Positions 10,576 through 38,730 of a stretch of DNA of 64,000 nucleotides are shown one piece after another. Position 1 is the stretch's first letter, and the number at the start of each line of letters is the position of its first letter. The DNA is taken from positions 104,969-168,968 of the forward strand of contig DYFK01000001.1 of NCBI GenBank assembly GCA_020725265.1, written 5' to 3'. This stretch comes from Hydrogenophilus sp. (GTDB lineage Bacteria; Pseudomonadota; Gammaproteobacteria; Burkholderiales; Thiobacillaceae). The notes beneath the pieces were generated by a model that ran no database searches, was not told where the DNA came from, and saw only the letters and a program-made list of their open reading frames with translations. The translations under genes and the position numbers were made by a program.

Positions 10576-11688
10576 TCAGTGGTAATCCATGGCCTTGTAG
10601 CCATGATTGCGGACCAGCTCATCGCGGCGCGCGGATTCGAGATCGGCGCGCGCCATTTCCGCGACCAGTTCGGCGAAACAGGTCTTCGGTGACCAGCCCA
10701 GCTTTTCACGCGCCTTGCTGGCATCGCCAAGCAGGGATTCCACCTCGGTGGGGCGGAAATAACGCGGATCGACCGCCACCACGGCCTGGCCAGGATCTCC
10801 TTGCGGACGATCGGTCCAATAGCCTTTCTCCTCGACACCACTTCCCCGCCAATGGATCGTCATGTCGAGTTCCTTCGCCGCGGCGTCGACGAAATCGCGC
10901 ACGCTGTACTGCGTCCCGGTGGCGATGACGAAGTCCTCCGGCCGCTCCTGCTGGAGCATCAGCCATTGCATTTCCACGTAGTCGCGGGCGTGTCCCCAAT
11001 CGCGTCGTGCATCCAGATTGCCGAGATAAAGGCAATCCTGCAGGCCGAGCTTGATGCGCGCCAGAGCCCGGGTGATCTTGCGGGTGACGAAGGTCTCGCC
11101 TCGTATCGGCGATTCGTGGTTGAACAGGATGCCGTTACAGGCATACAAACCGTAAGCCTCACGGTAGTTGACGGTAATCCAGTAGGCATACAGCTTGGCC
11201 ACCGCGTAGGGACTGCGCGGGTAGAACGGGGTGTTCTCGGTCTGTGGTGTCTCCCGAACCTTGCCGAACAGTTCGGAAGTGCTGGCCTGATAGAAGCGGG
11301 TTTTTTTCTCCAGGCCGAGGATGCGGATCGCCTCCAGCAAGCGCAGGGTTCCGATGGCGTCGGAGTTGGCGGTGTACTCAGGTTCCTCGAACGACACCGC
11401 GACATGCGACTGCGCGGCCAGGTTGTAGATCTCATCCGGCTGGACCTGCTGGATGATGCGGATCAGGCTGGAACTGTCGGTCAGATCGCCATGATGCAGA
11501 AAGAAGTGGCGATCGGCCTCGTGCGGATCCTGATAAAGATGATCGATTCGATCGGTGTTGAACAAGGAGGAGCGACGCTTGATGCCGTGAACCTCATACC
11601 CCTTGCCCAACAAGAACTCGGCAAGATAGGCCCCATCCTGTCCTGTCACTCCCGTAATCAGCGCGACTTTGACTTTATCCGTATTCAT
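10576..11688 (-). CDS. gmd: GDP-mannose 4,6-dehydratase
   Basis: [65 protein letters not shown]; diagnostic Gmd sequence. Confidence 0.97.
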
Positions 11689-13460: not shown

Positions 13461-14279
13461 TCACAGCACATCCGCGAACCCCCGTCGTGTCTTCTGGAAC
13501 CAGGCGAAACCGAGCCAGGCGACCGCCAGACTGACCGCCAGGCCAAGCCCGAGCGCGCCCCAATCCGGCATTTGTCCCCAGATGGTGACCGCGCGCGCCT
13601 GTTCGATCAGGTGGGCGAGCGGATTCAGGTACATGATCGCGCGGTAGTCCTCGGGCAGCGCGGTGACCGGATAAAAGATCGGCGACAGGAACATCAGCAC
13701 CGTGGTCGCCACGCCGACGGTCTGACCGACATCGCGCAGATAGACGCCGAGCGAGGCGAACAGCCAGGCCAGGCCCAGGGTCAGGAACACCAGCGGCAGC
13801 AGCACGACGGGCAGGAACACCACGGTCCATTGCAGGTCGTGGTTGACCAGCGCGTAGAACCCCAACAGCACGGCCAGGCTGACGGCGGCATGGAACAGCG
13901 CGGCGGCGAACACCACCCAGGGCAGGATTTCCAGCGGAAACACCACCTTCTTGACGTAGTTGGGATTGGCCAGCACCAGGCCGGGCGCGCGGTTGATGCA
14001 TTCGGCGAACAGGTTGTAGACGATCATGCCGGCGAACAGGACGATGGCGAACTCGGTCTTGCTGTCCGACCCGGACTGCCAGCGCGCGTTGAAGACGACG
14101 CTGAAGACGAAGGTGTAGACGGTCAGCATCAGCACCGGGTGAAAGAACGACCAGACGATGCCGAGCACCGAACCGCGATAGCGGCCGACCACCTCGCGGC
14201 GCGCCATCTGCGCGATCAGATCGCGGTGGCGCCAGACGCTGGCGACCATGGCGCTCGGGGAAATTTCGAAACGTTGCAT
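13461..14279 (-). CDS. Second ABC-2 type polysaccharide export permease (Wzm/KpsM-like)
   Basis: IAQMARREVVGRYRGSVLGIVWSFFHPVLMLTVYTFVFSVVF; LSPIFYPVTALPEDYRAIMYLNPLAHLIEQAR; likely start ATG at 14279. Confidence 0.88.
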   Translation of the reverse strand: MQRFEISPSAMVASVWRHRDLIAQMARREVVGRYRGSVLGIVWSFFHPVLMLTVYTFVFSVVFNARWQSGSDSKTEFAIVLFAGMIVYNLFAECINRAPGLVLANPNYVKKVVFPLEILPWVVFAAALFHAAVSLAVLLGFYALVNHDLQWTVVFLPVVLLPLVFLTLGLAWLFASLGVYLRDVGQTVGVATTVLMFLSPIFYPVTALPEDYRAIMYLNPLAHLIEQARAVTIWGQMPDWGALGLGLAVSLAVAWLGFAWFQKTRRGFADVL

Positions 14280-14297
14280 GAGGGCCGAAAGGATAAG

Positions 14298-14327
14298 GCG
14301 GATGCCGGCGAAAACCGGCATCCGCCC
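14298..14327 (-). terminator. Perfect 12-bp inverted repeat, possible terminator/attenuator after the DUF6580-like gene
   Basis: ggcggatgccgg-cgaaaa-ccggcatccgcc. Lies between the membrane-protein stop (14347) and the permease start (14279) on the minus strand; only a weak T-tract (ccttatccttt) follows. Confidence 0.5.
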
Positions 14328-15292: not shown

Positions 15293-17131
15293 ATGCAACG
15301 CAAACCCCTGGCCGTCGCGACCGGCCTGCTGTTCGTCGCCATCGCCGCGCCCACGCGCGCCGATACCCTTCCCCTGCTCGATCAGATCGTGGTCACCGCC
15401 AGCCGGCTGCCGGAGCGGCGCGCCGAGGTCGCCGGCGACGTCTCGGTGCTCACCCGCGCCGACATCGAACGCGCCGGCCAGGCGACGCTGACCGAGCTGC
15501 TGGCCACCCTGCCCGGCGTCGAGATCACCCGCAACGGTGGCGCCGGCGCCGTCACCAGCGTGTTCCTGCGTGGCGCCAACCGCAATCACAGCCTGGTGCT
15601 GGTCGATGGCGTGCGCATGACTTCGGCCAGCCTGGGCAGCGCCCGGCTCGAACACCTGCCACTGGAACTGGTCGAGCGCATCGAGGTGGTGCGCGGCCCG
15701 ATGAGCACGCTGTACGGTTCCGAGGCGATCGGCGGCGTCATCCAGATCTTCACCCGGCGCGGAGGCGGCGCGCCGCGCGCGCATGTCCGCGCCGGCCTCG
15801 GCGGCCTGGGGCTGGCCACGCTCGACGCCGGCCTCACCGGCGGCGCCGACGGCCTGCGTTACGCGCTGTCGGTCGGTCACGCCGAGCAGGACGGCCAGTC
15901 CGCCAGCAACCCGGACGCCGGACCGTGGACCTACAACCCGGACAAGGACGGCTACCGCAACCGGCGCGCGGCGCTGTCGCTGGAATATGACCTGGACGCC
16001 CGCCATGTTCTGTCGCTGCGCGGCCTGGCCAGCGACGGCCTGAGCCAGTTCGACGACGGTCTCGGCTTTTCCGGCGAGACCGTCGACAGCCGCGCCCGCG
16101 CCCGCCTGGGCAACGCCGGCGTCGGCCTGACCAGCAGGCTGGGCGCTGACTGGACCAGCAGCCTGCGCGCCGATTACGCCTACGAGAACGTGCGCACGCA
16201 CGGCAACGGCTACGCCAGCCACATCACGCTCGACCAGTGGCAGCTCGGCTGGCAGCTCGACGGCCGTACCGCGCCGGGGGATTGGGTGTTGCTGCTGGAG
16301 CGGCTCGACCAGAAGGTCGGCGGCGACGTCGGCTACGCGCGCGACCGGCGCGAGCGCGACGCCATCCTGCTTGGCTGGCGCCGCGATTTCGGTCGCCACC
16401 GGCTGCACGCCAACGCCCGCCATGACGACGACAGCCAGTTCGGCGGCCACGCCACCGGCGGCTTCGGCTACGGCCTGCGCCTGACCCCGGCCTGGCGCGC
16501 CGAGCTGGCCTGGGGCAGCGCCTACCGGGCGCCCGCCTTCGACGATCTGTACTGGCCGGGCGGCGGCAATCCGGAGCTGCGGCCGGAAACCGCGCGCAAC
16601 CTGGAGGCCGCCGTCAAACACCAGGCCGGCGACCGGCTCGTCAGCGCGACCGTCTACCGCAATCGCGTCGAGGACCTGATCCAGTGGGCGCCCGGCCCCG
16701 GCGGAAACTGGCGGCCGGACAACATCGCCCACGCCGATCTGCGCGGCCTGACCCTGGCCTGGCGGGATCGCCTCGGCGACTTCGACGCGCGCGCCAGCGT
16801 CGATTTCCAGCGCGCCGAGGATGCCGACACCGGCCAGCATCTGCCCCTGCGCGCCCGCCGTCATGCCAGCCTGGGTCTGGACTGGCGGGCCGGCGCCTGG
16901 ACGCTGTCGGCCGATCTGGTCGCGCGCGACGCCCGTTACGCCGACGCCGGCAACAGCCAGCGCCTGCCCGGGCATGTCGTGATCGACCTGGGCGCGCGCT
17001 ACCGGATCGACCGCGACTGGTCGATCGATGCCCGTCTGGCCAACGCCCTCGACGTCGATTACCAGCTCGCGCGCGGTTACGACGCGCCCGGCCGCAACCT
17101 GTTCGTCGCCGTCGCCTACGCGCCGCGCTGA
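15293..17131 (+). CDS. btuB: TonB-dependent vitamin B12 outer-membrane receptor
   Basis: Signal peptide, TonB-box-like LDQIVVTASRLPERRAEVAGDVSVLTRADIE, plug motif IEVVRGPMSTLYGSEAIGGVIQIFTR, barrel to the C-term; directly downstream of the B12 riboswitch. Confidence 0.93.
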   Translation: MQRKPLAVATGLLFVAIAAPTRADTLPLLDQIVVTASRLPERRAEVAGDVSVLTRADIERAGQATLTELLATLPGVEITRNGGAGAVTSVFLRGANRNHSLVLVDGVRMTSASLGSARLEHLPLELVERIEVVRGPMSTLYGSEAIGGVIQIFTRRGGGAPRAHVRAGLGGLGLATLDAGLTGGADGLRYALSVGHAEQDGQSASNPDAGPWTYNPDKDGYRNRRAALSLEYDLDARHVLSLRGLASDGLSQFDDGLGFSGETVDSRARARLGNAGVGLTSRLGADWTSSLRADYAYENVRTHGNGYASHITLDQWQLGWQLDGRTAPGDWVLLLERLDQKVGGDVGYARDRRERDAILLGWRRDFGRHRLHANARHDDDSQFGGHATGGFGYGLRLTPAWRAELAWGSAYRAPAFDDLYWPGGGNPELRPETARNLEAAVKHQAGDRLVSATVYRNRVEDLIQWAPGPGGNWRPDNIAHADLRGLTLAWRDRLGDFDARASVDFQRAEDADTGQHLPLRARRHASLGLDWRAGAWTLSADLVARDARYADAGNSQRLPGHVVIDLGARYRIDRDWSIDARLANALDVDYQLARGYDAPGRNLFVAVAYAPR

Positions 17132-17496
17132 TCGTCGGCGGACGGCGGCTCGCCGTCGTCGCGGCCGGCCACGCCCGACTCGGCCAGCGCGATGCGCTGG
17201 TTGAGCCGGCGCAGGTCGCGTCTGAGCTGGGTCAGGGCGATGTCGGTGAACAGCGCGCGCAATACCAGCACGACGATGGCGACCAGGAACAGCAGCGCCG
17301 GCGAATAGGCGATGCCGACCGCCTGGCCGAGCAGATCGAGCAACCCCGGCCAGATGCCGAACACCAGCGACCCGACCGCGACCGCGATCCAGAACAGGCC
17401 CTGGCGCAGATGGATGTGATCGCGCCGCACCAGGGTGAGGATGACGATGGCGAGGCCGACGCCGAGCACGGCCGCGACCAGGTGATAGTCCTTCAT
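17116..17496 (-). CDS. DUF2304 family membrane protein
   Basis: MKDYHLVAAVLGVGLAIVILTLVRRDHIHLRQGLFWIAVAVGSLVFGIWPGLLDLLGQAVGI; start ATG at 17496 overlaps the stop of the upstream GT. Confidence 0.8.
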   Translation of the reverse strand: MKDYHLVAAVLGVGLAIVILTLVRRDHIHLRQGLFWIAVAVGSLVFGIWPGLLDLLGQAVGIAYSPALLFLVAIVVLVLRALFTDIALTQLRRDLRRLNQRIALAESGVAGRDDGEPPSADDQRGA

Positions 17497-19358
17497 CGGT
17501 TTGGAGCCTTCGAGTTCCAGCGAGCCAGGCAGAGCAAAGTGGTTTCCGCCATGTAGCGGGCCACGCTCCACCATGAATGAAAAATGCGCGAGGCGCCGTG
17601 CTGGCGCGGGTTCATGGTCACCGGCACCTCGGCCACGCGCAGACCGGCGCGACGCAGCAGCAGCAACACGCCGATGTCCTGATAGTCGAGCAACGTCGCC
17701 TCCTCGCGCGCCAGAAGATAACAGGCTTTGGCGTTGTAATAGCGGAAGCCGGAAGTCAGATCCTCGAAGGCGAAGCCGGTCAGCAGGCGGAAATAGCGCC
17801 AGGCCAGATGGCGCGCCCAGGTGCCGCGCCCCGGGCAGGCACCGATGACGACATCGGCGCCGGCCGCCGCCGCGCGCAACAGGCCGGGCAGCTCCGCCGG
17901 CTCGTGCTGGCCGTCGGCATCCAGGGTGATGACGCCGGCATAGCCGTGACGAACGGCATGGCGGATGCCGGTCTGCATGGCGCCCCAGGCGCCCTGGCGC
18001 AACGGCGGCCGCAACACCGTGGCGCCGGCCTCGGCGGCCAGGCGCGGCGTATCGTCGCGGCTGCCGTCGTCGACCACCACCACGTCGATGCCATCGAGCG
18101 CGCGCACCCGGGCAACCACGTCGGCGATGCTGGCGGCCTCGTCGAGCGCCGGAATCACCGCCAGCAGGCGGCCATGACCGACGCCCACCGCCAGCGGCCG
18201 ATCCGGCTCCGGATCGATGGCGGCGTACAGCCGGCGCAGTTCGCGCGCCGACGCGGCGATGTCGAACTCGGCCAGGAAGCGGGCGCGGCCGCGTTCGCCC
18301 AGGCGCGCGCGCGCGTCGGCGTCGCCGGCCAGCCGGGCGAGCGCGGCGGCCAGCGCCGGCGCGTCGTCGGGCGGCGCCAGCACGGCGTTGTCATCCTCGC
18401 GCGCGACCCAGGTGACGCCGCTGCCGGCCAGGCGGGTGGCGACGATCGGCTTGCCATAGCGCATGGCCTCCATGAGCACGATGCCGAACGCCTCGGTGCG
18501 CTCGCGCGAAGGCAGACAGAACACGTCGCAGGACGCCAGCAGGCGGTGGCAGACCGCGTCGTCGGCCTGGCCGAGCAGACGGATGCGCGCGGGCCGGCCA
18601 AGGCGGTCGAGCAGGCGCTCCAGACGCGGCCGCTCCTCGCCGTCGCCGACGATGTTCAACGCGACGTCGGGCAGGCGGGCGACCGCCTCGATCAAGGTAT
18701 CGAAGCCCTTGTAATAGGTCAGCCGGCCGATCGCCAGCACGCGCGCGCCGGCGCCCCAGTCGGCGGCGCCGGCCGGGGCGGCATCGGCGGCCACCTCGGG
18801 CAGGCGGGCGGGATCGACGCCAAGCGGAATCACCCGGCACTTGTGCCGCCAGGGCCGCAGCGGCCGGCTCGTCGCCAGGTACGGCCGCGAGGTGACGACG
18901 ATGGCCTCGGCCCGCTCCAGCACGGCGCGTTCGAACACCCGGTAGAACGGATAGGCCAGACGCATCGACCAGGGAAAACGACCAGTTTCGACATCGGCAT
19001 GCCAGTGCACGACCCAGGGCCGGCGTCGCGCTGCCGGCACCATCAACGCGGCGAACGCGCTCAAATTGGGCAGATGCAGATGCAGCACCTCGGCATCGTG
19101 GCGGCGCAACGCGCGCACCAGCCAGAACGGAAACGCCGGACTGATCGGCGCGAACAGCAGGTTGAACCAGACCGGACAGCGCATCAGCCAGTCGGGGGCG
19201 GCGGCTTGGCCCGCGCGTGAAGCGGCGCCGGGATCGGCGTGGCACAACACCGCCGGCGCGTCGCCGAGCGCGCGCTGGGCCTCGACCAGATCGCCCAGAT
19301 AGCGCTCGATGCCACCCGGCACCGGCGGATAGAACTTGCCGATGTGCAGGATGCGCAC
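17493..19358 (-). CDS. Fused glycosyltransferase: N-terminal GT4 + C-terminal GT2 (polyprenyl-phosphate glycosyltransferase / DPM1-like)
   Basis: GTG at 19358 gives VRILHIGKFYPPVPGGIERYLGDLVEAQ (GT4, PSRERTEAFGIVLMEAMRYGKPIVAT), continuing in frame to LLAVIPALDEAASIADVVARVRALDGIDVVVVDDGSRDDTPRLA...ITLDADGQHEPAELP (GT2 DPM-like). No stop between domains; the ORF-track N-terminus beyond 19358 is an antisense artefact. Confidence 0.8.
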   Translation of the reverse strand: MRILHIGKFYPPVPGGIERYLGDLVEAQRALGDAPAVLCHADPGAASRAGQAAAPDWLMRCPVWFNLLFAPISPAFPFWLVRALRRHDAEVLHLHLPNLSAFAALMVPAARRRPWVVHWHADVETGRFPWSMRLAYPFYRVFERAVLERAEAIVVTSRPYLATSRPLRPWRHKCRVIPLGVDPARLPEVAADAAPAGAADWGAGARVLAIGRLTYYKGFDTLIEAVARLPDVALNIVGDGEERPRLERLLDRLGRPARIRLLGQADDAVCHRLLASCDVFCLPSRERTEAFGIVLMEAMRYGKPIVATRLAGSGVTWVAREDDNAVLAPPDDAPALAAALARLAGDADARARLGERGRARFLAEFDIAASARELRRLYAAIDPEPDRPLAVGVGHGRLLAVIPALDEAASIADVVARVRALDGIDVVVVDDGSRDDTPRLAAEAGATVLRPPLRQGAWGAMQTGIRHAVRHGYAGVITLDADGQHEPAELPGLLRAAAAGADVVIGACPGRGTWARHLAWRYFRLLTGFAFEDLTSGFRYYNAKACYLLAREEATLLDYQDIGVLLLLRRAGLRVAEVPVTMNPRQHGASRIFHSWWSVARYMAETTLLCLARWNSKAPNR

Positions 19359-21313
19359 TACCGCATCGCCCGGATACGCGTCCGCCACTCGGTCATGGCC
19401 GGATTGCCCGGGTCCATGACCAGCGCCCGCTCGATGTCGGCGAGCGCCGCCGCCCGGTCGCCGAGGCCGTGATGGGCCAGCGCCCGGCCGTAATGCACGG
19501 CGGCCACCGGCGCCTCCTCGATCAGATCGGTGAACAGCGCGCGCGCGCCGGCGAAATCGCGTTGCGCCACCAGCACCATGCCGAGATCGGCGCGCGCCTT
19601 CTTGTGGCGTGGATTCAACGCCAGCGCATTGGCGAAATCGGCGCGCGCGGCGTCCAGCTGGCCCATCTCCAGCGCCACCCTGCCCTTCACCGCCAGCACT
19701 TCCTCGCGCGCCGGCGAATCCGGCGTTTCCGCCAGCGCCAGCGCCAGTTCGCGGCCGGCCTCGCCGAGCCGGCCGAGCGCGTGCAGGATCACCCCACGCT
19801 GATAGCGCAGGCCGGGGAAGTCGTAGCCCGCCCGCTCGGCCCGGTCGACGGCGTCGAGCGCCTGGCCGTGCTGACCGGCCTTGAACAACAGGGCCGCCAT
19901 GTTGAACTGGCCCATGCCCTTGTCGCCGAGCGCCGACGAAGCCTGGAAATCCTCGAACGCCTCGCGCGTCCGCCCCTGCTCCAGCAACAGGTTGCCGCGC
20001 ACCAGATACGGGAACCAGCGGCCCACCGAGCGGGGATCGTCGGGCAACCTGGCGATGGCATCGCTCCACAACCGCTCCGGCTTGGACAACGTGTAGATCC
20101 GGTCCAGCCCCTGCCAGACCAACAGCCCGGCCAGCACGACGCCGAGCGGCAGCAACACCCGGCCGGGCAGGCCATGGAACAGGAAAAACACCAGGCCGGG
20201 CACGCCGATCGCCCACAGATAACTTCGATAGAGCACGAACGGATCCTGCACCCAGACGGTGGCGAACTCGGTCACGAACAGCAGCGCCGGCAGCAGCAGA
20301 GACACGCCGAGCAGCGCGCGCCAGTCGCGGTAACGGATGACCAGGAAGAAACCGCCGACCAGCACCGCCAGATAGCCGAACGCGCCGAACAGGTGCGGGA
20401 AGGTGGTCAGGCTGACCGGAAACGGCGGGCGCAGGTCGATGGCCATCCAGCCGGCGTACGGAATCAGCCAGTGCAGGCCGTACTGGAAGAACAGCCAGGT
20501 CTGGTTGAGCAGGCTGAGCGCGTAGGCGTTGGTCTCCACCTCCGGGCCGAGCGCCGCCAGTTGCGCCAGATAGATCTTCGAGAACTCGTCGAACGGTTTG
20601 CCCAGGATCTCGCCGTACCGCGACGCCAGCAACGCGCCGGCGGCGCCGACCAGCAAGGCGCCGACGCCGGCGAGCATGGCCAGCCGGCGTCCGGACGGCC
20701 GCGCCACCAGCACGTACACCGGCACCGCCGCCAGCGGCGCCATCAGCGCGTGTTCCTTGGACAACACCGCCAGCGCGTAGCAGACCAGCGCGGCGCCGTG
20801 CCAGAGCGGATTGCCGCGCAGGCCGCGCGCGAACGTCCACAAGCCGAGCAGCACGAACAGGGTCGCCATCAGGATCGAGCGCTGCACCAGATAGGCGACG
20901 GCGTACACCGCCACCGGATTCAACGCGAAGAAGCCCACCGCCAGACCAAGCGCCGGCGAGCGGTGATAGTCCGCGCCCGCCGGCGCGTCGTCCGGCGCCG
21001 CGATCGACTTGAGCAGCTCCCGGTACAACCCCCACAGCGCCAGCGTCGCGCCCACGTGCGCCAGCAGATTGAACGCCCGCTGCATCGGCCAGCTCTCGCC
21101 GAACCACGTCTGGAGCCAGACGAAACTGCCATAGGACAACCAGCGCGGCCGCCAGTCGGCGAGCGAACCGTAAACGCCGAAGATGCGACCGTCGGTCAAG
21201 GCGTCGTCGTCGAACACCAGCGGATTTCCCAGGCTCGGCAGATAAATCGCCGCGAGCGCCAGCAACACGAGCAGCGGCCAGGCCAGACGGCTGGCCATTT
21301 CATCGATTTTCAT
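19358..21313 (-). CDS. TMTC-like integral membrane protein with C-terminal TPR repeats (putative GT-C)
   Basis: MKIDEMASRLAWPLLVLLALAAIYLPSLGNPLVFDDDALTDG (early loop DD motif), many TM helices, LSKEHALMAPLAAVPVYV, then about 6 TPRs (GNLLLEQGRTREAFEDFQASSALGD...). Confidence 0.8.
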   Translation of the reverse strand: MKIDEMASRLAWPLLVLLALAAIYLPSLGNPLVFDDDALTDGRIFGVYGSLADWRPRWLSYGSFVWLQTWFGESWPMQRAFNLLAHVGATLALWGLYRELLKSIAAPDDAPAGADYHRSPALGLAVGFFALNPVAVYAVAYLVQRSILMATLFVLLGLWTFARGLRGNPLWHGAALVCYALAVLSKEHALMAPLAAVPVYVLVARPSGRRLAMLAGVGALLVGAAGALLASRYGEILGKPFDEFSKIYLAQLAALGPEVETNAYALSLLNQTWLFFQYGLHWLIPYAGWMAIDLRPPFPVSLTTFPHLFGAFGYLAVLVGGFFLVIRYRDWRALLGVSLLLPALLFVTEFATVWVQDPFVLYRSYLWAIGVPGLVFFLFHGLPGRVLLPLGVVLAGLLVWQGLDRIYTLSKPERLWSDAIARLPDDPRSVGRWFPYLVRGNLLLEQGRTREAFEDFQASSALGDKGMGQFNMAALLFKAGQHGQALDAVDRAERAGYDFPGLRYQRGVILHALGRLGEAGRELALALAETPDSPAREEVLAVKGRVALEMGQLDAARADFANALALNPRHKKARADLGMVLVAQRDFAGARALFTDLIEEAPVAAVHYGRALAHHGLGDRAAALADIERALVMDPGNPAMTEWRTRIRAMR

Positions 21314-21611
21314 GCGTATCCCTGAACCGAAAAAACGCGGCGGATGCCGCCGGTGGGCGATTTTCGCATAGCGCGGCGGCGCTGGCCCCACGCCCCGCCC
21401 GGCGTCGGGGATACCGGCAGCGACGCCCGATCCATGCCGTGGAAGCGGAAGAAAGTTCACATATTTCGACTATCATCGGTCCCCGCCCCGCCCGCCCGGG
21501 TGGGATTCCGCCGAAACTTTCCGGCCTCCCGCAACGACGATCTCGATACCCGCCGACCCCTGACCTCGCGCTTCGACCGGCCCGCCCGACGCCGACGCGC
21601 CGCCCCCGAAA

Positions 21612-23906
21612 ATGCCCCGCGCGCGCCTGTTCCTCCAACGACTCCGCTACCAGCTCCAGCGTCTGTTCAGCCTGATCGTGGCGTTGCCGATGCTGATCCG
21701 GCATTACGGCTCGCTGGGCAACGTCATCGTCAAGGCCTTCCGCGTCCTGCGTCGGCAGGGGCTGACCGGCTTCCGGCTGCGGGTGGCCATGTTCCTGCAT
21801 CTGGCCCGGCAGTCGCGCGGCGACCAGACCGACGCCCCCCCGCCAGTGCCGCCGATGGCGCTGTACGAAATCCCGGACGCGCCCGACTTCGCGCCCCGCG
21901 TCTCGGTGATCGTGCCCAACTACAACCACGCCGGCTACCTGCGCCAGCGGCTCGACAGCATCTACGGCCAGGGCTACGCCAATCTCGAAGTCATCCTGCT
22001 CGACGATTGCTCGTCCGACGACAGCCGGGCGATCCTGCGGGAATACGCCGACCGCTATCCGGACATCACCCGTGTCGCCTTCAACACGGAAAACTCCGGC
22101 GGCGTCTTCCACCAATGGCGCAAGGGACTGGAAATGGCCACCGAGATGGCCACCGGCGAACTGGTCTGGATCGCCGAGAGCGACGACCATTGCACGTCCA
22201 ACCTGCTCGCCGAACTGGTGCCCTGCTTCGCCAACCAGGCGGTCATGCTCGCCTTCTGCCGTTCCGATTTCGTCGAGGACGGCAAGGACGCCCCGGTCTG
22301 GAGCACCGAGGACTACCTGCATGACCTGTGTCCGGACTGGCGCCAGCCGTTCGTCCGGTCCGCGCACTGGCTGGTCAACCACGCCTGGGGCGTCAAGAAC
22401 ATCGTGGCCAACGTCAGCAGCGCGCTGTTCCGGCATCCCGGCCGCCTGCCGCTGCTGGAAGACCCGGAATGGACCGGCCTGAAACTGTGCGGCGACTGGA
22501 TCTTCTACCTGACCCTGATCCGCGGCGGCCTGGTCGCCTACACGCCCAGGGCCACCAACTTCTACCGCCAGCATCCGCGCAACACCTCGGTCGGCGCGCA
22601 CGGCGAGGACCGCTATTACCAGGAGCACGAACGGGTGCTGCGCCATCTGGTGTCGATGTACCGGATCGACCAGGCCACCCTGGACCGCAACCGGGCAGCC
22701 CTGCGCGCGCACTGGCTGCGCAACCGGCCCGACGCGCCGGAAACCGGCTTCGACGCGCTGTTCGACCCCTCGCGCGTCCGCGACGCGGCCGACACGCGCC
22801 GCAAGAACATCCTGATGGCCTCGTTCGGCTTCATCCCCGGCGGCGGCGAAACCTTCCCGATCACGCTCGCCAACCTGCTCAAGCGGCGCGGCCACGCGGT
22901 CACCTTCTTCAACCTGCGCGAAGGCCACGCCGTACCCGGCATTCGCGGCCTGCTCGACCGCGACATCCCGGTGCTCGAACTCGACCGCCTGGAACTGACC
23001 GGCGCCGTCTGCGTGGACATGGGCATCGAAATCGTCCACTCCCACCATGCCTGGGTGGACATGACCCTGGCCGCGCTGCTGATCGGCCTGTCCGACATCA
23101 AGCAGGTGGTGACCATGCACGGCATGTACGAAATGCTGCCGGCGGAACAGATCGCCGGCATGCTGCCGCTGCTGGAGCAACGCATCAGCCGCTTCGTCTA
23201 CATCGCCGACAAGAACCTGGCGCCGTTCTCCGCCGAATTCCGCCAGCGCAAGGGCTTCGTCCGCATCGACAACGCCCTCGCCCTGTCGGAAATCCGGCCG
23301 ATCCCGCGCGCCGAACTGGGCATCGCCGACGACGCCTTCGTGCTCTGCGTGGTCTCGCGCGCGATCCCGGAAAAAGGCTGGGAAGAAGCCATCCAGTCCG
23401 TGGCCTGGGCGCGCGCCCATTGCCAGCGCGACATCCAGTTGCTGCTGGTCGGCAGCGGCGACGAACTCGACCGCCTGAACCGTGGCGACGCGCCCGACTT
23501 CGTCCACTTCATGGGTTTCCGTGCCAACACGCGCGACTACTTCGCCAGCGCCGACCTGGGCTTCCTGCCCTCCCGCTTCGGCGGCGAAAGCTACCCGCTG
23601 GTGATCATCGACTGCCTGCACGCCGGCCGGCCGGTGCTGGCCAGCCGGCTCGGCGAAATCCCGGCCATGCTGGAAACCGGCCATGGCCCCGCCGGCGCGC
23701 TGTTCGACCTGGAGGACTGGCGCATCCCCATCGAACACGTCGGCCGCCTCATCGCCGACCTGGCGACCGACCCCGACCGCTACCGCGCCCTGCTCGAACG
23801 CGTACCCGCCGCCGCCGAGAGATTCAACCCGGAAAACATGGTGACCAGGTACGAGACGGTGTATGCGGAGTGCTTCAGGACCGGCGACGATGCCAGCCAA
23901 CCATGA
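21612..23906 (+). CDS. Bimodular glycosyltransferase: GT2 domain followed by GT4 domain
   Basis: PRVSVIVPNYNHAGYLRQRLDSIYGQGYANLEVILLDDCSSDDS (GT2) and later VLCVVSRAIPEKGWEEAIQSVAWAR...SRFGGESYPLVIIDCLHAGRPVLAS (GT4). Confidence 0.9.
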   Translation: MPRARLFLQRLRYQLQRLFSLIVALPMLIRHYGSLGNVIVKAFRVLRRQGLTGFRLRVAMFLHLARQSRGDQTDAPPPVPPMALYEIPDAPDFAPRVSVIVPNYNHAGYLRQRLDSIYGQGYANLEVILLDDCSSDDSRAILREYADRYPDITRVAFNTENSGGVFHQWRKGLEMATEMATGELVWIAESDDHCTSNLLAELVPCFANQAVMLAFCRSDFVEDGKDAPVWSTEDYLHDLCPDWRQPFVRSAHWLVNHAWGVKNIVANVSSALFRHPGRLPLLEDPEWTGLKLCGDWIFYLTLIRGGLVAYTPRATNFYRQHPRNTSVGAHGEDRYYQEHERVLRHLVSMYRIDQATLDRNRAALRAHWLRNRPDAPETGFDALFDPSRVRDAADTRRKNILMASFGFIPGGGETFPITLANLLKRRGHAVTFFNLREGHAVPGIRGLLDRDIPVLELDRLELTGAVCVDMGIEIVHSHHAWVDMTLAALLIGLSDIKQVVTMHGMYEMLPAEQIAGMLPLLEQRISRFVYIADKNLAPFSAEFRQRKGFVRIDNALALSEIRPIPRAELGIADDAFVLCVVSRAIPEKGWEEAIQSVAWARAHCQRDIQLLLVGSGDELDRLNRGDAPDFVHFMGFRANTRDYFASADLGFLPSRFGGESYPLVIIDCLHAGRPVLASRLGEIPAMLETGHGPAGALFDLEDWRIPIEHVGRLIADLATDPDRYRALLERVPAAAERFNPENMVTRYETVYAECFRTGDDASQP

Positions 23907-32623: not shown

Positions 32624-33903
32624 GGCTGGACCGCCTCCACGACGATGTCCGGGTTTTCCAGGTAGACCAGACCGGTGAGCTTGCCCAGATCGGCCGGCGG
32701 CAACACCTCGAATTCGCAGACGCCGTTGAGCATGCACAGCGATTCGTTGCCGGCGTATTCGCCATCGACCAGGTTGGTGTAGAAGTTGTAGAAGCCGCGC
32801 GCCAGGTTGGGCAGCCGGAAGCGCAGGCGGAACACGCGCGTTTCGCCGGCCCGGATCGGCGGCAGGCGGCGGCCGTAGATCTCGGTGTTGTAGTGGCAGA
32901 CGGTGACCGCCTTGGCGTTGACGATGGCCACGCCCAGCATGGGCCGGGCGACATCGGCCTCGAACTCGACGCGCAGCGCGTATTCGACCAGTTCGTTGCC
33001 GTCGAACGGCCGCGCCAGCCCGGCCTCGGCGCCGGCGCGACCGAAGCGCAGCGCGCAACGGGCGCCGTTGCGCACCGTGTACTTGTTGTCCGGCACCGGC
33101 GCGAAGGCGTCCTCCGTGCCGGCGATCGCCGTCGGCGACGGCGCCGCCACCACCGACTGGCGGGCATCGCCGTAGAGCATGAAGGCGGCGTAGTGATCGG
33201 TGACGTCGCGCGCGTTGCCCTGCTCGCGCACCCGGCCCTGGTCGATCCACAACGCCCGCGCGGCGATCGAACGCACCGAGCCCATGTCGTGCGAGACGAA
33301 CAGCAGGGTGCCGCCATCGGCGACGAAATCGCGCATCCAGCGGAAGCATTTCTGCACGAAATTCATGTCGCCCACCGCCAGCGCCTCGTCGACGATGAAG
33401 ATGTCCGGATCGATGTGGGTGGCGCAGGCGAACGCCAGACGCATGAACATGCCGCTGGAGTAGCGCTTGACCGGCTGCTGGATGAACGCCTCCAGTTCCG
33501 AGAAGCGGACGATCCGTTCGATCCGGGCTTCGGTTTCGTCCGGACTCAGGCCGTTGATCGCGCAGAAAGTCCGGATGTTTTCCAGGCCGGTGCATTCCAC
33601 GTCGAAACCGACCCCGAGTTCCAGCAGCGAAGCCAGCCGGCCGCGCGCCTCCACCCTGCCCGTGCTCGGCGCCAGCACGCCGGCGATGATCTGCAACAGC
33701 GTCGACTTGCCGGAGCCGTTGCGGCCGACGATGCCGTAAGCCTCGCCCCGACGCACTTCCAGATCGATGCCTTCGAGCGCCTGAAACTTGCGGTGCAGCG
33801 GCCGGCGCAGCGGGTGGAACATCTCCTTGATGCGGTCGCTCGGGCGGGCGTAGATGTCGTAGGCCTTGCCGACGCCCTCCAGCCGGATCGCGATTTCGTT
33901 CAT
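32620..33903 (-). CDS. wzt: ABC transporter ATPase Wzt with C-terminal carbohydrate-binding-like domain
   Basis: YGIVGRNGSGKSTLLQIIAGVLAPSTGRV; YSSGMFMRLAFACATHIDPDIFIVDEALAVGD; about 190-aa beta-rich C-terminal extension (ALRVEFEADVARPMLGVAIVNAKAVTVCHYNTEIYG...). Confidence 0.93.
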   Translation of the reverse strand: MNEIAIRLEGVGKAYDIYARPSDRIKEMFHPLRRPLHRKFQALEGIDLEVRRGEAYGIVGRNGSGKSTLLQIIAGVLAPSTGRVEARGRLASLLELGVGFDVECTGLENIRTFCAINGLSPDETEARIERIVRFSELEAFIQQPVKRYSSGMFMRLAFACATHIDPDIFIVDEALAVGDMNFVQKCFRWMRDFVADGGTLLFVSHDMGSVRSIAARALWIDQGRVREQGNARDVTDHYAAFMLYGDARQSVVAAPSPTAIAGTEDAFAPVPDNKYTVRNGARCALRFGRAGAEAGLARPFDGNELVEYALRVEFEADVARPMLGVAIVNAKAVTVCHYNTEIYGRRLPPIRAGETRVFRLRFRLPNLARGFYNFYTNLVDGEYAGNESLCMLNGVCEFEVLPPADLGKLTGLVYLENPDIVVEAVQP

Positions 33904-35954
33904 GCCGTCACCGCCTCGGCATGGACGCGGCGCAGCGCCTCGGCCAGCGCCTGGACCGGCTCCGGCCGGTCGAACAGCGCGGGCAGCCCGGCGCCGACGC
34001 GCGCGGCGGCATCGGCGCGCGCGGCCGGATCGCGCCCGAGCCGGGCGGCGATGTCGACGTAATCATCGACATCGCGCGCGATCAGGTCGTCCAGCCCGAG
34101 CGCGCGCAGCATGGCCATGCTCTGGCGGCCGCGCATCCAGCGTCCGGGCAGGGCCACCAGCGGCAGCCGGCAGCGCAGCGCGTCGAGCGCGGTATGACCA
34201 CCCGACCAGTGCTGGCTGTCGAGCATCACGTCACAGACCTGATTCAGGCGCAGGTAGTCGTCGTGTGGCATCGGCGCGAGCACGCGCACGACTTCGGCCG
34301 TGACCAGGCCCTGGCCGGCGAGCGCCTGGCCGAGTCTGGCGAGCAGCGCGGCCATGGCCGGATCGGCGGCATCGCCGAGCAGGACCAGCCGGCTGCCCGG
34401 CACCGCCGCGAGCACGCGCGCCAGCGCGGCGTCGTTGTCCGGGTGGCACTTGTAATGCGATTGCGGAAACAGGTAGAGCACGCCGGTCTCGGGCAGGCCG
34501 AAGGCGGCGCGTCCACCGGTCGCCGGCGGTGGCGGCGCCAGCGGATAGCGGACCCCCAGGCCGGGCAGCGGCAGCACGCGCTCGACATAGTCGGCGGCGC
34601 CGTTTTCCGGCTCCATGTCGGCGCAGGTGAAGAAATGGTCGACGTTGGCCAGGCCGCTGGTGACCGGGTGTCCCCAGGCCGCGCACTGGACCGGCGCCAG
34701 ACGTAGCGCGGCAAGCAGGAAGGTGGTGCCGTCCATGCCCAGCTCCGGGTAGATCAGCACGTCCTGCCCGGTCGCGGCGATGGTCTCGGCCAGGTCGGCG
34801 GGCGATGTCCGGTCCGACAGCACGTGGACCCGCGCGGCGGCGGCATCGACGCGCGCGCGCAACGCGTCGGCGTGATCGCCGAGGTGGAACAGGCTGATCT
34901 CGAACCCGGCCGGATCCAGCCCGGTGATCCAGCTCTGGAAATAGTTGCCGACCGTGCAGTCGTGCAGGAAGCGGGAAACGAAGCCGACCCGGATACGGCC
35001 GGCGGACGCGCGCGCCGGCCGGGAAGCCGGCATGGCGCGCGCGTATTCGGGCAAGGCCGCCGCCAGCAGGCGTTCGAGAAACCGGCCATAGGCGCGCTGC
35101 GCCGCCCGGTCGTCCAGACACTGGTAGGCCAGATAGAAATTGCCGTGTCGCAGGCCGGCCAGCAAGGCTTCGGCGGGCAGCCGGGCGAGCGTGTCGGCGA
35201 GGCCGTCCAGGCGCGCCATGCCGGCCTCCCAGTCGGCGCGCGCGCGCGCCAGCGCGGCGGCCGAGGCATACACGCGCGGCAGGGTCAGTTCGGCCTCGAT
35301 GGCATCGCCCACCCGCGCGGGATCGAGCCGATACGCGCGCGCGAAGCAGTCCCGGGCCGCTTCGGCCTGGTTGCTCTCGGCCAGCGCGCGGCCGAGCAGG
35401 GCCAGGCTTTCGGCGTCAGCGGGCGCCAGCCGGAGCGCCTCGCGCAGCGCGCGCTCCGCCGTTGGGTAATCCTTGCGGCGCAGGGCCAGGCGGCCGAGAT
35501 CGCGGCGAACGCCGGCATCCTCCGGCGCCCCGCGCGCCAGCGCTTCCAGATCCCGGCCGGCTTCGTCCGGCCGGTTCAGTTCGAGCAGCAACGCGGCCCG
35601 GTTGCGCAACGCGGCCGTATAGCCGGGCTGGAGCGCCAGGGCGCGGTGGTAGGCATCGAGCGCGTCTTCGGTCCGACCGGCATCCCGCAAGGCCAGCCCG
35701 AGGTTGTTCCAGGCCTGAACAATGCCGGGATTGCGCGCCAGCGCCTGCTGGTAGGCGGCGGCCGCGTCGGCCGGCCGGTCCTGGTCGTGCAACACCAGCC
35801 CCAGCGTGTACGGATAGGCGGGTTGCGCCGGATCGAGCGCCATGGCCGCGCGCAGATGCGCCTCCGCCGTCGCCAGATCGGCCGCCTGATGCGCCGCGAT
35901 GCCCTGCCGATACCGGACCTGGGCCGGCGCGGTCGACGCGCTGGAGTGGTTCAT
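33900..35954 (-). CDS. TPR protein with GT41 (OGT/SPINDLY-like) catalytic domain
   Basis: TPRs (AWNNLGLALRDAGRTEDALDAYHRALALQPGY) then RVGFVSRFLHDCTVGNYFQSWITGLD...LAPVQCAAWGHPVTSG...LPLVALPGRWMRGRQSMAMLRALGLDDLIA. Confidence 0.88.
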   Translation of the reverse strand: MNHSSASTAPAQVRYRQGIAAHQAADLATAEAHLRAAMALDPAQPAYPYTLGLVLHDQDRPADAAAAYQQALARNPGIVQAWNNLGLALRDAGRTEDALDAYHRALALQPGYTAALRNRAALLLELNRPDEAGRDLEALARGAPEDAGVRRDLGRLALRRKDYPTAERALREALRLAPADAESLALLGRALAESNQAEAARDCFARAYRLDPARVGDAIEAELTLPRVYASAAALARARADWEAGMARLDGLADTLARLPAEALLAGLRHGNFYLAYQCLDDRAAQRAYGRFLERLLAAALPEYARAMPASRPARASAGRIRVGFVSRFLHDCTVGNYFQSWITGLDPAGFEISLFHLGDHADALRARVDAAAARVHVLSDRTSPADLAETIAATGQDVLIYPELGMDGTTFLLAALRLAPVQCAAWGHPVTSGLANVDHFFTCADMEPENGAADYVERVLPLPGLGVRYPLAPPPPATGGRAAFGLPETGVLYLFPQSHYKCHPDNDAALARVLAAVPGSRLVLLGDAADPAMAALLARLGQALAGQGLVTAEVVRVLAPMPHDDYLRLNQVCDVMLDSQHWSGGHTALDALRCRLPLVALPGRWMRGRQSMAMLRALGLDDLIARDVDDYVDIAARLGRDPAARADAAARVGAGLPALFDRPEPVQALAEALRRVHAEAVTA

Positions 35955-38389
35955 CCCCGGCCGGTGATGTCCGCGACGCCGCCATCCGCCAGCACCGCGA
36001 AATCGGCCGGCGCCTGGCCGGCGAGCCGGCGCGCGTGCATGTGCTGGAAGGCGGCTTCCAGATGGCGCCGGAAGCGGTCGCTGTCGAACAGCGGGGCGGT
36101 CGCGCGCGCCGCCGTCAAACGCGCGCGGAGATCGGCCAGCATGTCCGGGTTGCCGGCCAGGCGCAGGGCGATCGCCTCGTACTCGTCCGGCGTGCCGGCG
36201 ATCAGTTCGGGCAGGCCCACGGCCTTGAGCAGGCTGGCGGCGACCCGGCCGGCGAAGGCGCGGCCCGGCCGGGTCAGCACCGGCACGCCGGCCCACAGGG
36301 CATCGCTGGCGGTGGTATGGGCGCCATACGGCAGGGTATCGAGGAACAGGTCGGCGCGCGCCAGGCGGGCCAGATGCTTGGCGATCGGCCGGATACGCGC
36401 GAACACCAGCCGGTCCGGCGCGACACCGCGTTTTTCCGCCTCACCGCGCAGGTTGGCCTGCGCGGTCTCGTCGTCGCACAGCAGCCAGAGCACGCTGCCT
36501 TCGACCTTGGTGAGCAGACGCATCCAGAGGTCGAACACCGCCGGTTTGATCTTGTGAACGCCGTTGAAGCAACAGAATACGAAGCCGTTTTCCGGCAGGC
36601 CGAGCTCGGCGCGCGACGGCGCGTCCTCGTGGATCTCGCGGGTGGCGTCGTTGACCTGGTAGCTGTCCGGCAGCCAGACCACGCGCTCCTGGAAATGGAC
36701 GAGGCCATCGACCGGAATCACCGTCTCGTCGGCGATCACGTAATCGATGAAATCGGCGCCCATGCTGCCCGGATAGCCGAGGTAGTTGATCTGGATCGGC
36801 GCGCAACGGCCGGCCAGGATGCCGGTGCGAGCATCCTTGGTATAACCCTTGAGGTCGACCGCGATGTCGATGTCGCGCTCGCGCAGGTAGGCGATCACCT
36901 CGGCGTCGGACATCTCGCGCGCGTCGACGAAGTGCTCGAAGGCGGCCCGCGCCCGCTGGCGCATGGCGTCGTTGGCCTCCGGACCGATCGACACGCCCCA
37001 GACCTCGAATCGTTCGCGGTCATGCAGTTCGAACAGACGCGCGGCCAGGATCATGGTGGCGTGGTTGTGGAAATCGGCCGAGAGGTAGGCGACCCGGATA
37101 CGCCCCGGCGCGCGCGCCGCCGCGACCGGCGCCGCCACGTCCGGAAAATGCCGGGCCACCCAGTTGCGCGCGGCGCGCAGCGCCAGCTCCGGATCGTCCA
37201 GCCAGGCAAGCACCGCGAGCGGCTTGACCTCGCCATTGCCGGCCAGAATCTGTTCGCGGATCACCGCCTCATGCAGGGCGTTGTCACGCCAGCGGCACTG
37301 ACTGGCATGCGCGGCGGCGAGTCGATCGCCGACCAGTAGCTCGGGTTCCGCCAGGGCCACGCCACGTGCCCGCATCAGCCAGCCCTCGGCGACGTCGGGC
37401 AGGTTTTCCAGACGCGCCAGTTCGGCCAGTTCCAACATCGCCTCCAGATTACCGGCGTCCAGGCGCAACGCGCGCGCGAGCGCGTCGGCGGCTTCCGGAC
37501 GCCGATCCAGGCGACGCGCCAGCCGGCCCCGATTGACCCAGGCAGTGACGAAGGCGGGGGCGCCGGTGGTCGCCATCTCGTAACGGGCGAGCGCTTCCTC
37601 GATGCGGTCCATCGATTCCAGGATCACGCCCTGGGTGTTGATCGCGTCGGCATCGTTCGGTGTCGCCGCCAGCAGGGCATCGAGCTCAGCCAGCGCTTCT
37701 TCCGGCCGGCCGGCGCCAGCCAGAGCCTGCGCGCGGCCGACGCGGGCATCGCGCAACGGCCCTTTGGCCAGCAGCAGATCGAAATGCCCGATCGCCTCGT
37801 CGGCGCGGCCCAGTTCGGTGAGAACCCGGCCGATGGTCAGGTGGGCGATGATCAGTCGCGGCTCGGCGGTCAATGCCCGTTGCGCGCTCTCCAGCGCCTC
37901 GTCGGGCCGGCGCGCGACCAGCAGCGCGTTCGCCCGGTTCAGCCAGGCCGCCGCGAACTCGGGCATGCGCGTCAGCGCGGTATCGAAGCTCGCGATCGCG
38001 TCGAGCGCCCGCCCCATCGCCAGCAAGGCATTGCCATGGCCGAACCAGGCATTGACCAGATCGGGATTGAGCTTGAGGGCCATGTCGAACGCCAGCAGGG
38101 CCTCGTCATGGCGCCCCAGCGCGGACAGCGCCCGGCCCCGGCCGACATGCGCCTCGGCGAAATCCGGGGCGCCACGCGTAGCCGCCTCGAACCGGGCGAG
38201 CGCGTCGGCCGCCGCGTTGAGTTCGAGCTTGCATTCACCCAGATGGTGCAGCACCAGCGGGTGCCCGGGTTTTTGCATCAATACCGTTTCATACAGGGCC
38301 ACCGCCGCCCGGTATTGCTGGGGCGCGCGCGCCTGGTTGTGCATGCGCACCGCCTGCTGGAAAAGGGCATCCGCCGTATTGGTCGCCAT
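35951..38389 (-). CDS. TPR protein with GT41 (OGT/SPINDLY-like) catalytic domain, tandem paralog
   Basis: Many TPRs; RIRVAYLSADFHNHATMILAARLFELHDRERFEV; CAPIQINYLGYPGSMGADFIDYVIAD; DALWAGVPVLTRPGRAFAGRVAASLLKAVGLPELIA. Confidence 0.92.
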   Translation of the reverse strand: MATNTADALFQQAVRMHNQARAPQQYRAAVALYETVLMQKPGHPLVLHHLGECKLELNAAADALARFEAATRGAPDFAEAHVGRGRALSALGRHDEALLAFDMALKLNPDLVNAWFGHGNALLAMGRALDAIASFDTALTRMPEFAAAWLNRANALLVARRPDEALESAQRALTAEPRLIIAHLTIGRVLTELGRADEAIGHFDLLLAKGPLRDARVGRAQALAGAGRPEEALAELDALLAATPNDADAINTQGVILESMDRIEEALARYEMATTGAPAFVTAWVNRGRLARRLDRRPEAADALARALRLDAGNLEAMLELAELARLENLPDVAEGWLMRARGVALAEPELLVGDRLAAAHASQCRWRDNALHEAVIREQILAGNGEVKPLAVLAWLDDPELALRAARNWVARHFPDVAAPVAAARAPGRIRVAYLSADFHNHATMILAARLFELHDRERFEVWGVSIGPEANDAMRQRARAAFEHFVDAREMSDAEVIAYLRERDIDIAVDLKGYTKDARTGILAGRCAPIQINYLGYPGSMGADFIDYVIADETVIPVDGLVHFQERVVWLPDSYQVNDATREIHEDAPSRAELGLPENGFVFCCFNGVHKIKPAVFDLWMRLLTKVEGSVLWLLCDDETAQANLRGEAEKRGVAPDRLVFARIRPIAKHLARLARADLFLDTLPYGAHTTASDALWAGVPVLTRPGRAFAGRVAASLLKAVGLPELIAGTPDEYEAIALRLAGNPDMLADLRARLTAARATAPLFDSDRFRRHLEAAFQHMHARRLAGQAPADFAVLADGGVADITGRG

Positions 38390-38730
38390 CCGTCGCGCTT
38401 TCTCTTTCAATGGAATTGCGCCGCGCCAGCGGAGAACCCGACGCGCGGCGAGAACGCGCGATTATCCGTCATTCATGGGGGTTTTTCGCGCTTGGCGCGC
38501 CCGCCCGGAGCGTTCCCGGCCTCGACATCTCCGATCCCGCCACCGGCGCCATGACTACCCAGGCGCGAAATTGTGGCGCCTATCGGTCCGACTCGGTCAA
38601 AGCCCGTACGACATGTTCAGGGCTCCGCCTGCAATCCAGAATGCGCCAGACCTCCATGGCTTCGCCATTGATCCAGTGCACTCCCCGCAGCCTTGAACGC
38701 GCCCGTTCGACAGGCCGACCATACCCATGC

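Follow-up and report, generated by a model that had tools for sequence, protein, structure and literature searches.

The closest described relatives of the system reported here pair a synthase of polyprenyl-phosphate sugars with a glycosyltransferase (GT) of the GT-C type. GacI/GacJ of Streptococcus pyogenes and WpsA/WpsB of Lactococcus make N-acetylglucosamine-phosphate-undecaprenol (GlcNAc-P-C55), and in both pairs the partner carrying DUF2304, a domain described as typical of GacJ-like proteins, raises activity (PMC10821137, PMC8327497). In the GacI/J/K/L system the synthase is used with a GT-C enzyme to decorate extracellularly a rhamnan exported by an ATP-binding cassette (ABC) transporter, while in lactococci WpsC builds a lipid-linked disaccharide on GlcNAc-P-C55; the lactococcal work put forward a WpsA/B/C complex but did not predict one (PMC10821137, PMC8327497). 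PpgS with Rv3632 makes polyprenyl-phosphate-N-acetylgalactosamine (PMC9671496, PMC3485146), and the GT136 system of Citrobacter offers a precedent for periplasmic decoration of ABC-type O-antigens (PMC11127046). Full-length proteins resembling the eukaryotic TMTC O-mannosyltransferases have also been noted in prokaryotes, where they are uncharacterised (PMC7801869). Here we describe a three-gene module at positions 17116-21313, minus strand, of a 64,000-nucleotide stretch of Hydrogenophilus sp. (Burkholderiales; assembly GCA_020725265.1, contig DYFK01000001.1, positions 104,969 to 168,968), hereafter the window. It encodes a TMTC-like membrane protein with a C-terminal TPR array, a GT4::GT2 fusion and a DUF2304 protein. 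Drawing all enzymatic statements from gene structure, predicted fold, conserved residues, co-conservation and context, we propose, with a probability of about 0.6, that the triad is an extracytoplasmic glycosylation module comprising a lipid-linked mono- or disaccharide synthase and a periplasmic transferase.

Gene structure and predicted activities of the triad

The membrane-protein gene (651 aa; 19358-21313, minus strand, as for all three genes) begins with an ATG at 21313, matching the start in its relatives, and ends with a TAG at 19360-19358. The last base of this stop codon is also the first of the GTG that starts the fusion gene at 19358 (621 aa; 17493-19358), and the TGA of the fusion (17495-17493) runs into the start of the DUF2304 gene (126 aa; 17116-17496; ATG at 17496-17494), the two codons forming a four-base ATGA overlap. 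Such 1- and 4-base overlaps, read directly from the codons, are typical of translational coupling. We regard two large antisense open reading frames on the plus strand (17577-19220 and 19217-21325) as GC-rich shadow frames, since the conserved families are found in the minus-strand frames.

In the fusion, Pfam places GT4 (PF00534, 113.8 bits; PF13579, 82.9 bits) ahead of GT2 (PF00535, 70.3 bits) in one unbroken frame. For the GT2 half (residues 396-621; 17496-18173), the nearest NCBIfam model is PpgS (polyprenyl-phospho-N-acetylgalactosaminyl synthase; 72 bits, below the cut-off of 370), followed by AglJ and a haloarchaeal dolichyl-phosphate hexose transferase, and the best relatives among solved proteins are DPMS of P. 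furiosus (5mlz, E=6.7e-9) and ArnC (2.3e-7). Its predicted metal/nucleotide site, D480-A-D482-G-Q484-H485 (17904-17921), corresponds to D96/D98/Q100 of WpsA; D480, D482 and Q484 are invariant in 13 aligned fusions and equal the metal-binding DxDxQ of WpsA and DPMS. Like WpsA, the GT2 half has no transmembrane helices, the sole hydropathy peak of the fusion (~398) being the first strand of a Rossmann-like fold. The DUF2304 protein matches PF10066 at 77.6 bits and has about three transmembrane segments by hydropathy, as befits a GacJ/WpsB/Rv3632-like protein. A DPM-like GT2 with DxDxQ, no transmembrane helices and a DUF2304 gene beside it are the features of a GacI/WpsA-type synthase, and judged by sequence the two proteins are the same pair as GacI/GacJ and WpsA/WpsB (compare PpgS/Rv3632). 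The GT4 half (residues 1-385; 18204-19358) has PimA among several solved GT4 relatives, and the EX7E motif of retaining GT4 enzymes (E289 and E297; 18468-18494) is invariant in the same 13 fusions. The original prediction of three overlapping minus-strand genes, comprising an uninterrupted GT4 and DPM1-like GT2 frame followed by DUF2304, is thus borne out by the codons, the Pfam order and the PF10066 match, and the catalytic residues on which its DPM-like reading depended are intact.

The membrane protein proved harder to classify. Several Pfam TPR models fall on residues ~430-640, confining the repeats to the C-terminal third as originally described, and no Pfam family matched the membrane part. 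AlphaFold2 (AF2), run with 14 relatives, gave a whole-protein model with a pLDDT of 83.1 and a pTM of 0.77, in which helix pairs support a TPR array at residues ~433-648 (19370-20017). Since the matches listed by Foldseek for this model were all TPR structures, the membrane domain (residues 1-417; 20063-21313) was folded alone, with a pTM of 0.87. Foldseek then returned PglB, ArnT (with undecaprenyl phosphate), EmbA/B/C, the oligosaccharyltransferase OST/STT3, ALG3 and Pmt4 at probabilities of 0.87-1.00; every match listed at 0.87 or above was a GT-C enzyme, and the remaining listed proteins reached at most 0.35. E-values for the GT-C matches were modest (about 0.01-0.2), with TM-scores of ~0.4, and the sequence profile of the domain matched nothing in the PDB, hence no solved GT-C enzyme. 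Given these modest values, three things carry the GT-C assignment: the uniformity of the hit list, conserved residues, and PMT_2 matches, all of them weak, in 8 of the 22 family members (2.6e-4 in locus L059, L numbers denoting loci of relatives). With that qualification, the model points to a multi-helix GT-C fold, as first predicted.

Conservation was assessed in 15 close and 22 diverse relatives. The pair D35-D36 in the first periplasmic loop (21206-21211) is invariant in the close set and at least 90% conserved in the diverse set, supplying the acidic first-loop residues of GT-C enzymes (role from PMC7801869); the third residue of the loop motif first described as DDD varies, so that only F-D35-D36 stands. 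K186 is invariant and E187 at least 90% conserved in the close set (20753-20758), both being at least 90% conserved in the diverse set, and R363 (20225-20227) is invariant in 22 of 22. Set against the TMTC motif table (PMC7801869), D35/D36 match the DD of M1, R145 the R of RxD, K186/E187 the KE of M4, D293 the D of DW in M5, and R363 the R of ERxxY in M7, the putative lipid-phosphate contact. The D-R-K-D-R intervals are 110/41/107/70, compared with 115/52/111/74 in TMTC1, and a membrane domain precedes a TPR array in both. Other defining TMTC features are absent or partial: M2 (SHKSYRP) is missing, loop 1 having no HK and just an SY-containing stretch; M3 keeps R145 without a D at +2; M5 keeps D293, followed by L and not W; and DUF1736 (PF08409) had no match at E<=0.1 in the membrane protein or any of the 22 members. 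Because these features were looked for and not found, we do not claim membership in the TMTC family, and the original label holds only in the looser sense of TMTC-like. Counted from a cytoplasmic N-terminus, the helices would put the TPR array in the periplasm together with the loops that carry DD, KE and R363, and by the same simple count the D293 loop lands on the opposite side.

Co-conservation of the three genes

Whether the triad is conserved elsewhere was addressed in an unbiased sample of 300 genomes of the order. The fusion occurs in 7, the membrane-domain family in 38 and DUF2304 above its cut-off in 11. All seven fusion genomes hold all three genes, as the original proposal required. 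The membrane protein adjoins the fusion in each (hypergeometric p=3.1e-7, uncorrected for shared ancestry), and the seven rank as the top 7 of the 38 by membrane-protein similarity (rank chance 8e-8, likewise uncorrected). DUF2304 is adjacent in four; in G166 and G235 it shares the contig at a distance of 12-20 kb, and in the remaining genome, whose fusion sits at a contig end, it is on another contig. In most relatives its gene adjoins GT2. The triad therefore recurs in other genomes far beyond chance. The fusion is missing from the other 31 membrane-family genomes, and four of their loci that were examined show no GT2/DUF2304 partner; the membrane-protein family is therefore wider than the module. 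Taken together, the core of the original prediction, a polyprenyl-phosphate-sugar synthase acting with a GT-C transferase, survived the comparisons of fold, catalytic residues and triad conservation.

A different pair of proteins adjoins unfused GT2/DUF2304/GT4 sets in other relatives: c4 (~490 aa, polytopic, with an invariant WDAW) and c5 (~440 aa), fused in some species (for example L083:8194-10784, L061:8330-10795 and L079:8566-11221). Neither has a Pfam match, and they are a candidate new GT-C family. Profile comparison of our membrane domain with c4, the gammaproteobacterial partner, gave 11% probability over 96 columns, which does not show the two to be one family.

Proposed mechanism, acceptor and role of the GT4 half

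In the mechanism we propose, the DUF2304 protein would keep the GT2 half at the membrane, where this half would very probably load undecaprenyl phosphate with a sugar taken from a nucleotide-sugar. The GT4 half may then add a second sugar to give a lipid-phosphate-disaccharide, as WpsC does after WpsA/WpsB, a step that we favour by a little. Some flippase would turn the lipid-linked sugar over, and the GT-C domain would probably pass the glycan to a periplasmic acceptor bound by the TPR array on the same side. For the acceptor, we give about even odds to an O-polysaccharide exported by the neighbouring Wzm/Wzt transporter, by analogy with the decoration of rhamnan by GacI/J/K/L.

This choice of acceptor comes from gene context. 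In the window, the triad lies ~3 kb from the ABC-2 permease gene wzm (13461-14321, minus strand; PF01061) and near Wzt, a GDP-mannose 4,6-dehydratase (GMD; 10576-11688, minus strand; PF16363, 525 bits), a second Wzt with Wzt_C, and many glycosyltransferases. Close relatives of this Wzm come right after the triad in L031 and L052 and after ManC in L059. In L146 and L148, which also hold close relatives of this Wzm, a DUF2304-ManC-GT-Wzm-Wzt cluster opens with DUF2304, and 11-20 kb separate it from the fusion/membrane pair (we take the second gene to be ManC from its sequence start only). Overall, Wzm/Wzt are adjacent to the module or no more than 20 kb from it in the window, L031/L052, L059, L065, L072 and L146-L148. 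Because this linkage recurs in separate lineages, decoration of an ABC-exported O-polysaccharide is favoured, and the original wording, protein or glycan O-glycosylation, is narrowed: context suggests such a polysaccharide more often than a protein.

Protein O-glycosylation is the alternative that fares best, although we consider it unlikely. It holds that the TMTC-like enzyme acts like eukaryotic TMTCs and PMTs and places the lipid-linked sugar on Ser/Thr residues of surface or secreted proteins, the TPR array reading the protein acceptor. TPR arrays usually bind peptides, and the architecture and motifs of the membrane protein are TMTC-like. Large secreted proteins also stand beside the module in L059, L064 and L029, a 932-aa Ser/Thr-rich one inside the L064 operon, and the Xanthomonadales operons, set among housekeeping genes, lie beside small secreted proteins (c7/c8), so that protein acceptors are possible. 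No such protein was seen by the triad in the window or in most Thiobacillus loci, however; the cases in Xanthomonadales all go back to a single ancestral gene order, with c4 as their membrane protein instead, and the adjacency of secreted proteins stands without a background rate. A more specific version, bacterial TMTC-type O-glycosylation in which the TPR-bearing GT-C enzyme moves an undecaprenyl-phosphate disaccharide premade by GT4::GT2 to Ser/Thr of surface proteins, appears improbable; if true, the donor pathway of a prokaryotic TMTC-like enzyme would be known, and the system could serve as a model of how eukaryotic TMTCs arose.

Two features of these secreted proteins were recorded in their own right. 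The protein directly upstream of the TMTC-like gene in L059 (L059:1391-3712; 774 aa) is S-layer-like, with 26.5% Ser+Thr and no Cys. The small secreted proteins by the Xanthomonadales operons (L080, L082, L083, L088, L091, L092, L094, L095 and L099; about 1.9-5.8 kb) share C-terminal ends, LPVxLQxFSx in proteins of 160-190 aa and FDxFDSRRQTFIG in those of 253-357 aa, which are possible sorting or processing signals.

Whereas the original prediction left the GT4 half without a role, 54 loci gathered from genome contigs by short seeds in either fusion half indicate that it is conserved together with GT2. Both halves are present in 51 of the 54, mostly adjacent: fused in 14 beta-proteobacterial loci, ordered GT4-GT2-DUF2304 in delta- and many gammaproteobacterial loci, and ordered GT2-DUF2304-GT4 in Xanthomonadales/Chromatiales. 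The named loci closest to our fusion come from metagenome-assembled genomes of Thiobacillus, with 77-80% identity across the fusion, and of a member of the Hydrogenophilales; Acidovorax sp. MR-S7 (L058), a cultured environmental relative, carries the module as well. GT4 and GT2 distance matrices correlate at r=0.89 overall and 0.90 in unfused loci only, values that include common species history. Judged by sequence, then, the association of GT4 with GT2, whether by fusion or by adjacency, holds in beta-, gamma- and deltaproteobacteria. Such constancy argues against a functionally independent GT4 half, one that acts in the cytoplasm to extend a lipid or the O-antigen and owes its fusion or co-transcription to stoichiometry only. 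We regard this as rather unlikely, even though many lineages encode the two separately, in two gene orders, and the solved relative PimA acts on a lipid other than an undecaprenyl-phosphate sugar. Since WpsC adds a second sugar to a lipid-phosphate sugar, the same task is the most economical role for the GT4 half, and the fusion is consistent with the idea of a WpsA/B/C complex. Least probable of all is the assembly of a longer undecaprenyl-phosphate glycan by GT2, GT4 and other cytoplasmic enzymes, polymerised or moved en bloc by the membrane protein as polymerase or ligase: the lactococcal polysaccharide pellicle, in which GlcNAc-P-C55 from WpsA/B is the acceptor elongated by WpsC-F, and the many glycosyltransferases in the window speak for it, but several relatives of the module stand alone with no further GT genes nearby, and the membrane domain looks like a GT-C transferase, a class in which PglB-type enzymes nevertheless move oligosaccharides en bloc.

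Besides the modest structural scores and the species history shared by GT4 and GT2, several points weigh against the proposed module and its acceptor. Gammaproteobacterial relatives are often alone beside housekeeping and small secreted-protein genes, outside O-antigen loci, and closeness to Wzm/Wzt could reflect shared residence in a glycan island. The module holds no flippase, which sets it apart from a three- or four-component transmembrane glycosylation system. GtrA was rejected for this role, as nothing GtrA-like lay above the cut-off in the genome (other flippase families were not searched), and the genome's one PF01943 protein sits on another contig. With no flippase in the module, and DUF2304 12-20 kb from the other two genes in two relatives, the term self-contained, applied to the system at first, had to be dropped.

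Several neighbours deserve mention. A BtuB-like TonB receptor gene (15293-17131, plus strand) converges on the DUF2304 gene, with a 16-base overlap at its 3' end. A second, unrelated fusion of reversed domain order, GT2::GT4 (21612-23906, plus strand), is divergent and 298 bases from the triad; it has just weak matches near the triad in relatives. An O-antigen-like locus encodes two TPR proteins (33900-36296 and 35951-38410, minus strand) that carry GT41 domains of the O-GlcNAc transferase/SPINDLY-like kind, and similar proteins also adjoin L030 and L067. Finally, L155:7185-10336 holds another GT2-DUF2304 pair beside Wzm/Wzt, with a 601-aa ten-helix protein, which raises the possibility that ABC O-antigen loci often carry DUF2304 systems.

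Comparison with described systems

Our search of open-licence papers found none on a GT4::GT2/DUF2304/TMTC-like set, and in the literature found, prokaryotic TMTC-like proteins are known only as sequences. The module ties one TMTC-like subfamily to a dedicated lipid-linked sugar synthase and offers a testable partner set; the donor should therefore be findable by expressing two genes and reading the lipids. It also brings O-antigen loci of Gram-negatives into the range of DUF2304-dependent synthases, which have been studied in mycobacteria and Gram-positives; the fusion lends support to the unconfirmed idea that the priming and second glycosyltransferases, WpsA/B and WpsC, act as one complex.

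With TMTC1-4 and their full-length prokaryotic homologues, the membrane protein shares a GT-C domain, a loop-1 DD, KE and R at similar spacing, and TPRs that follow the GT-C domain on the non-cytosolic side (PMC7801869); unlike them, it has no DUF1736 match, lacks the D of RxD and the W of DW, and is tied to its own lipid-phosphate-sugar synthase. The PpgS(Rv3631)/Rv3632/Rv3779 system, which serves arabinogalactan galactosamine addition in mycobacteria and corynebacteria, likewise combines a GT2 synthase, a small membrane helper and a GT-C enzyme (PMC9671496, PMC3485146), but it has no GT4 and no TPR, and its acceptor polymer is another. GtrA/GtrB/Gtr O-antigen glucosylation and the Citrobacter GT136 pentofuranose system resemble our module in that a GT-C enzyme adds side-chain sugars extracytoplasmically from a polyprenyl-phosphate donor. 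GtrB has its own transmembrane helices instead of DUF2304. Both systems include a flippase (GtrA-like or MATE), whereas searches for GtrA and PF01943 found none in the module described here. Closest are GacI/GacJ/GacK/GacL and WpsA/WpsB(/WpsC), with their DPM-like GT2 free of transmembrane helices and adjacent DUF2304 activator; here, by contrast, GT2 is fused behind GT4, the GT-C partner bears a TPR array, the host is Gram-negative and the module has no Wzx-type flippase. The module is thus a variant of the polyprenyl-phosphate-sugar/GT-C systems, set apart by its GT4::GT2 fusion and its TPR-bearing, TMTC-like transferase.

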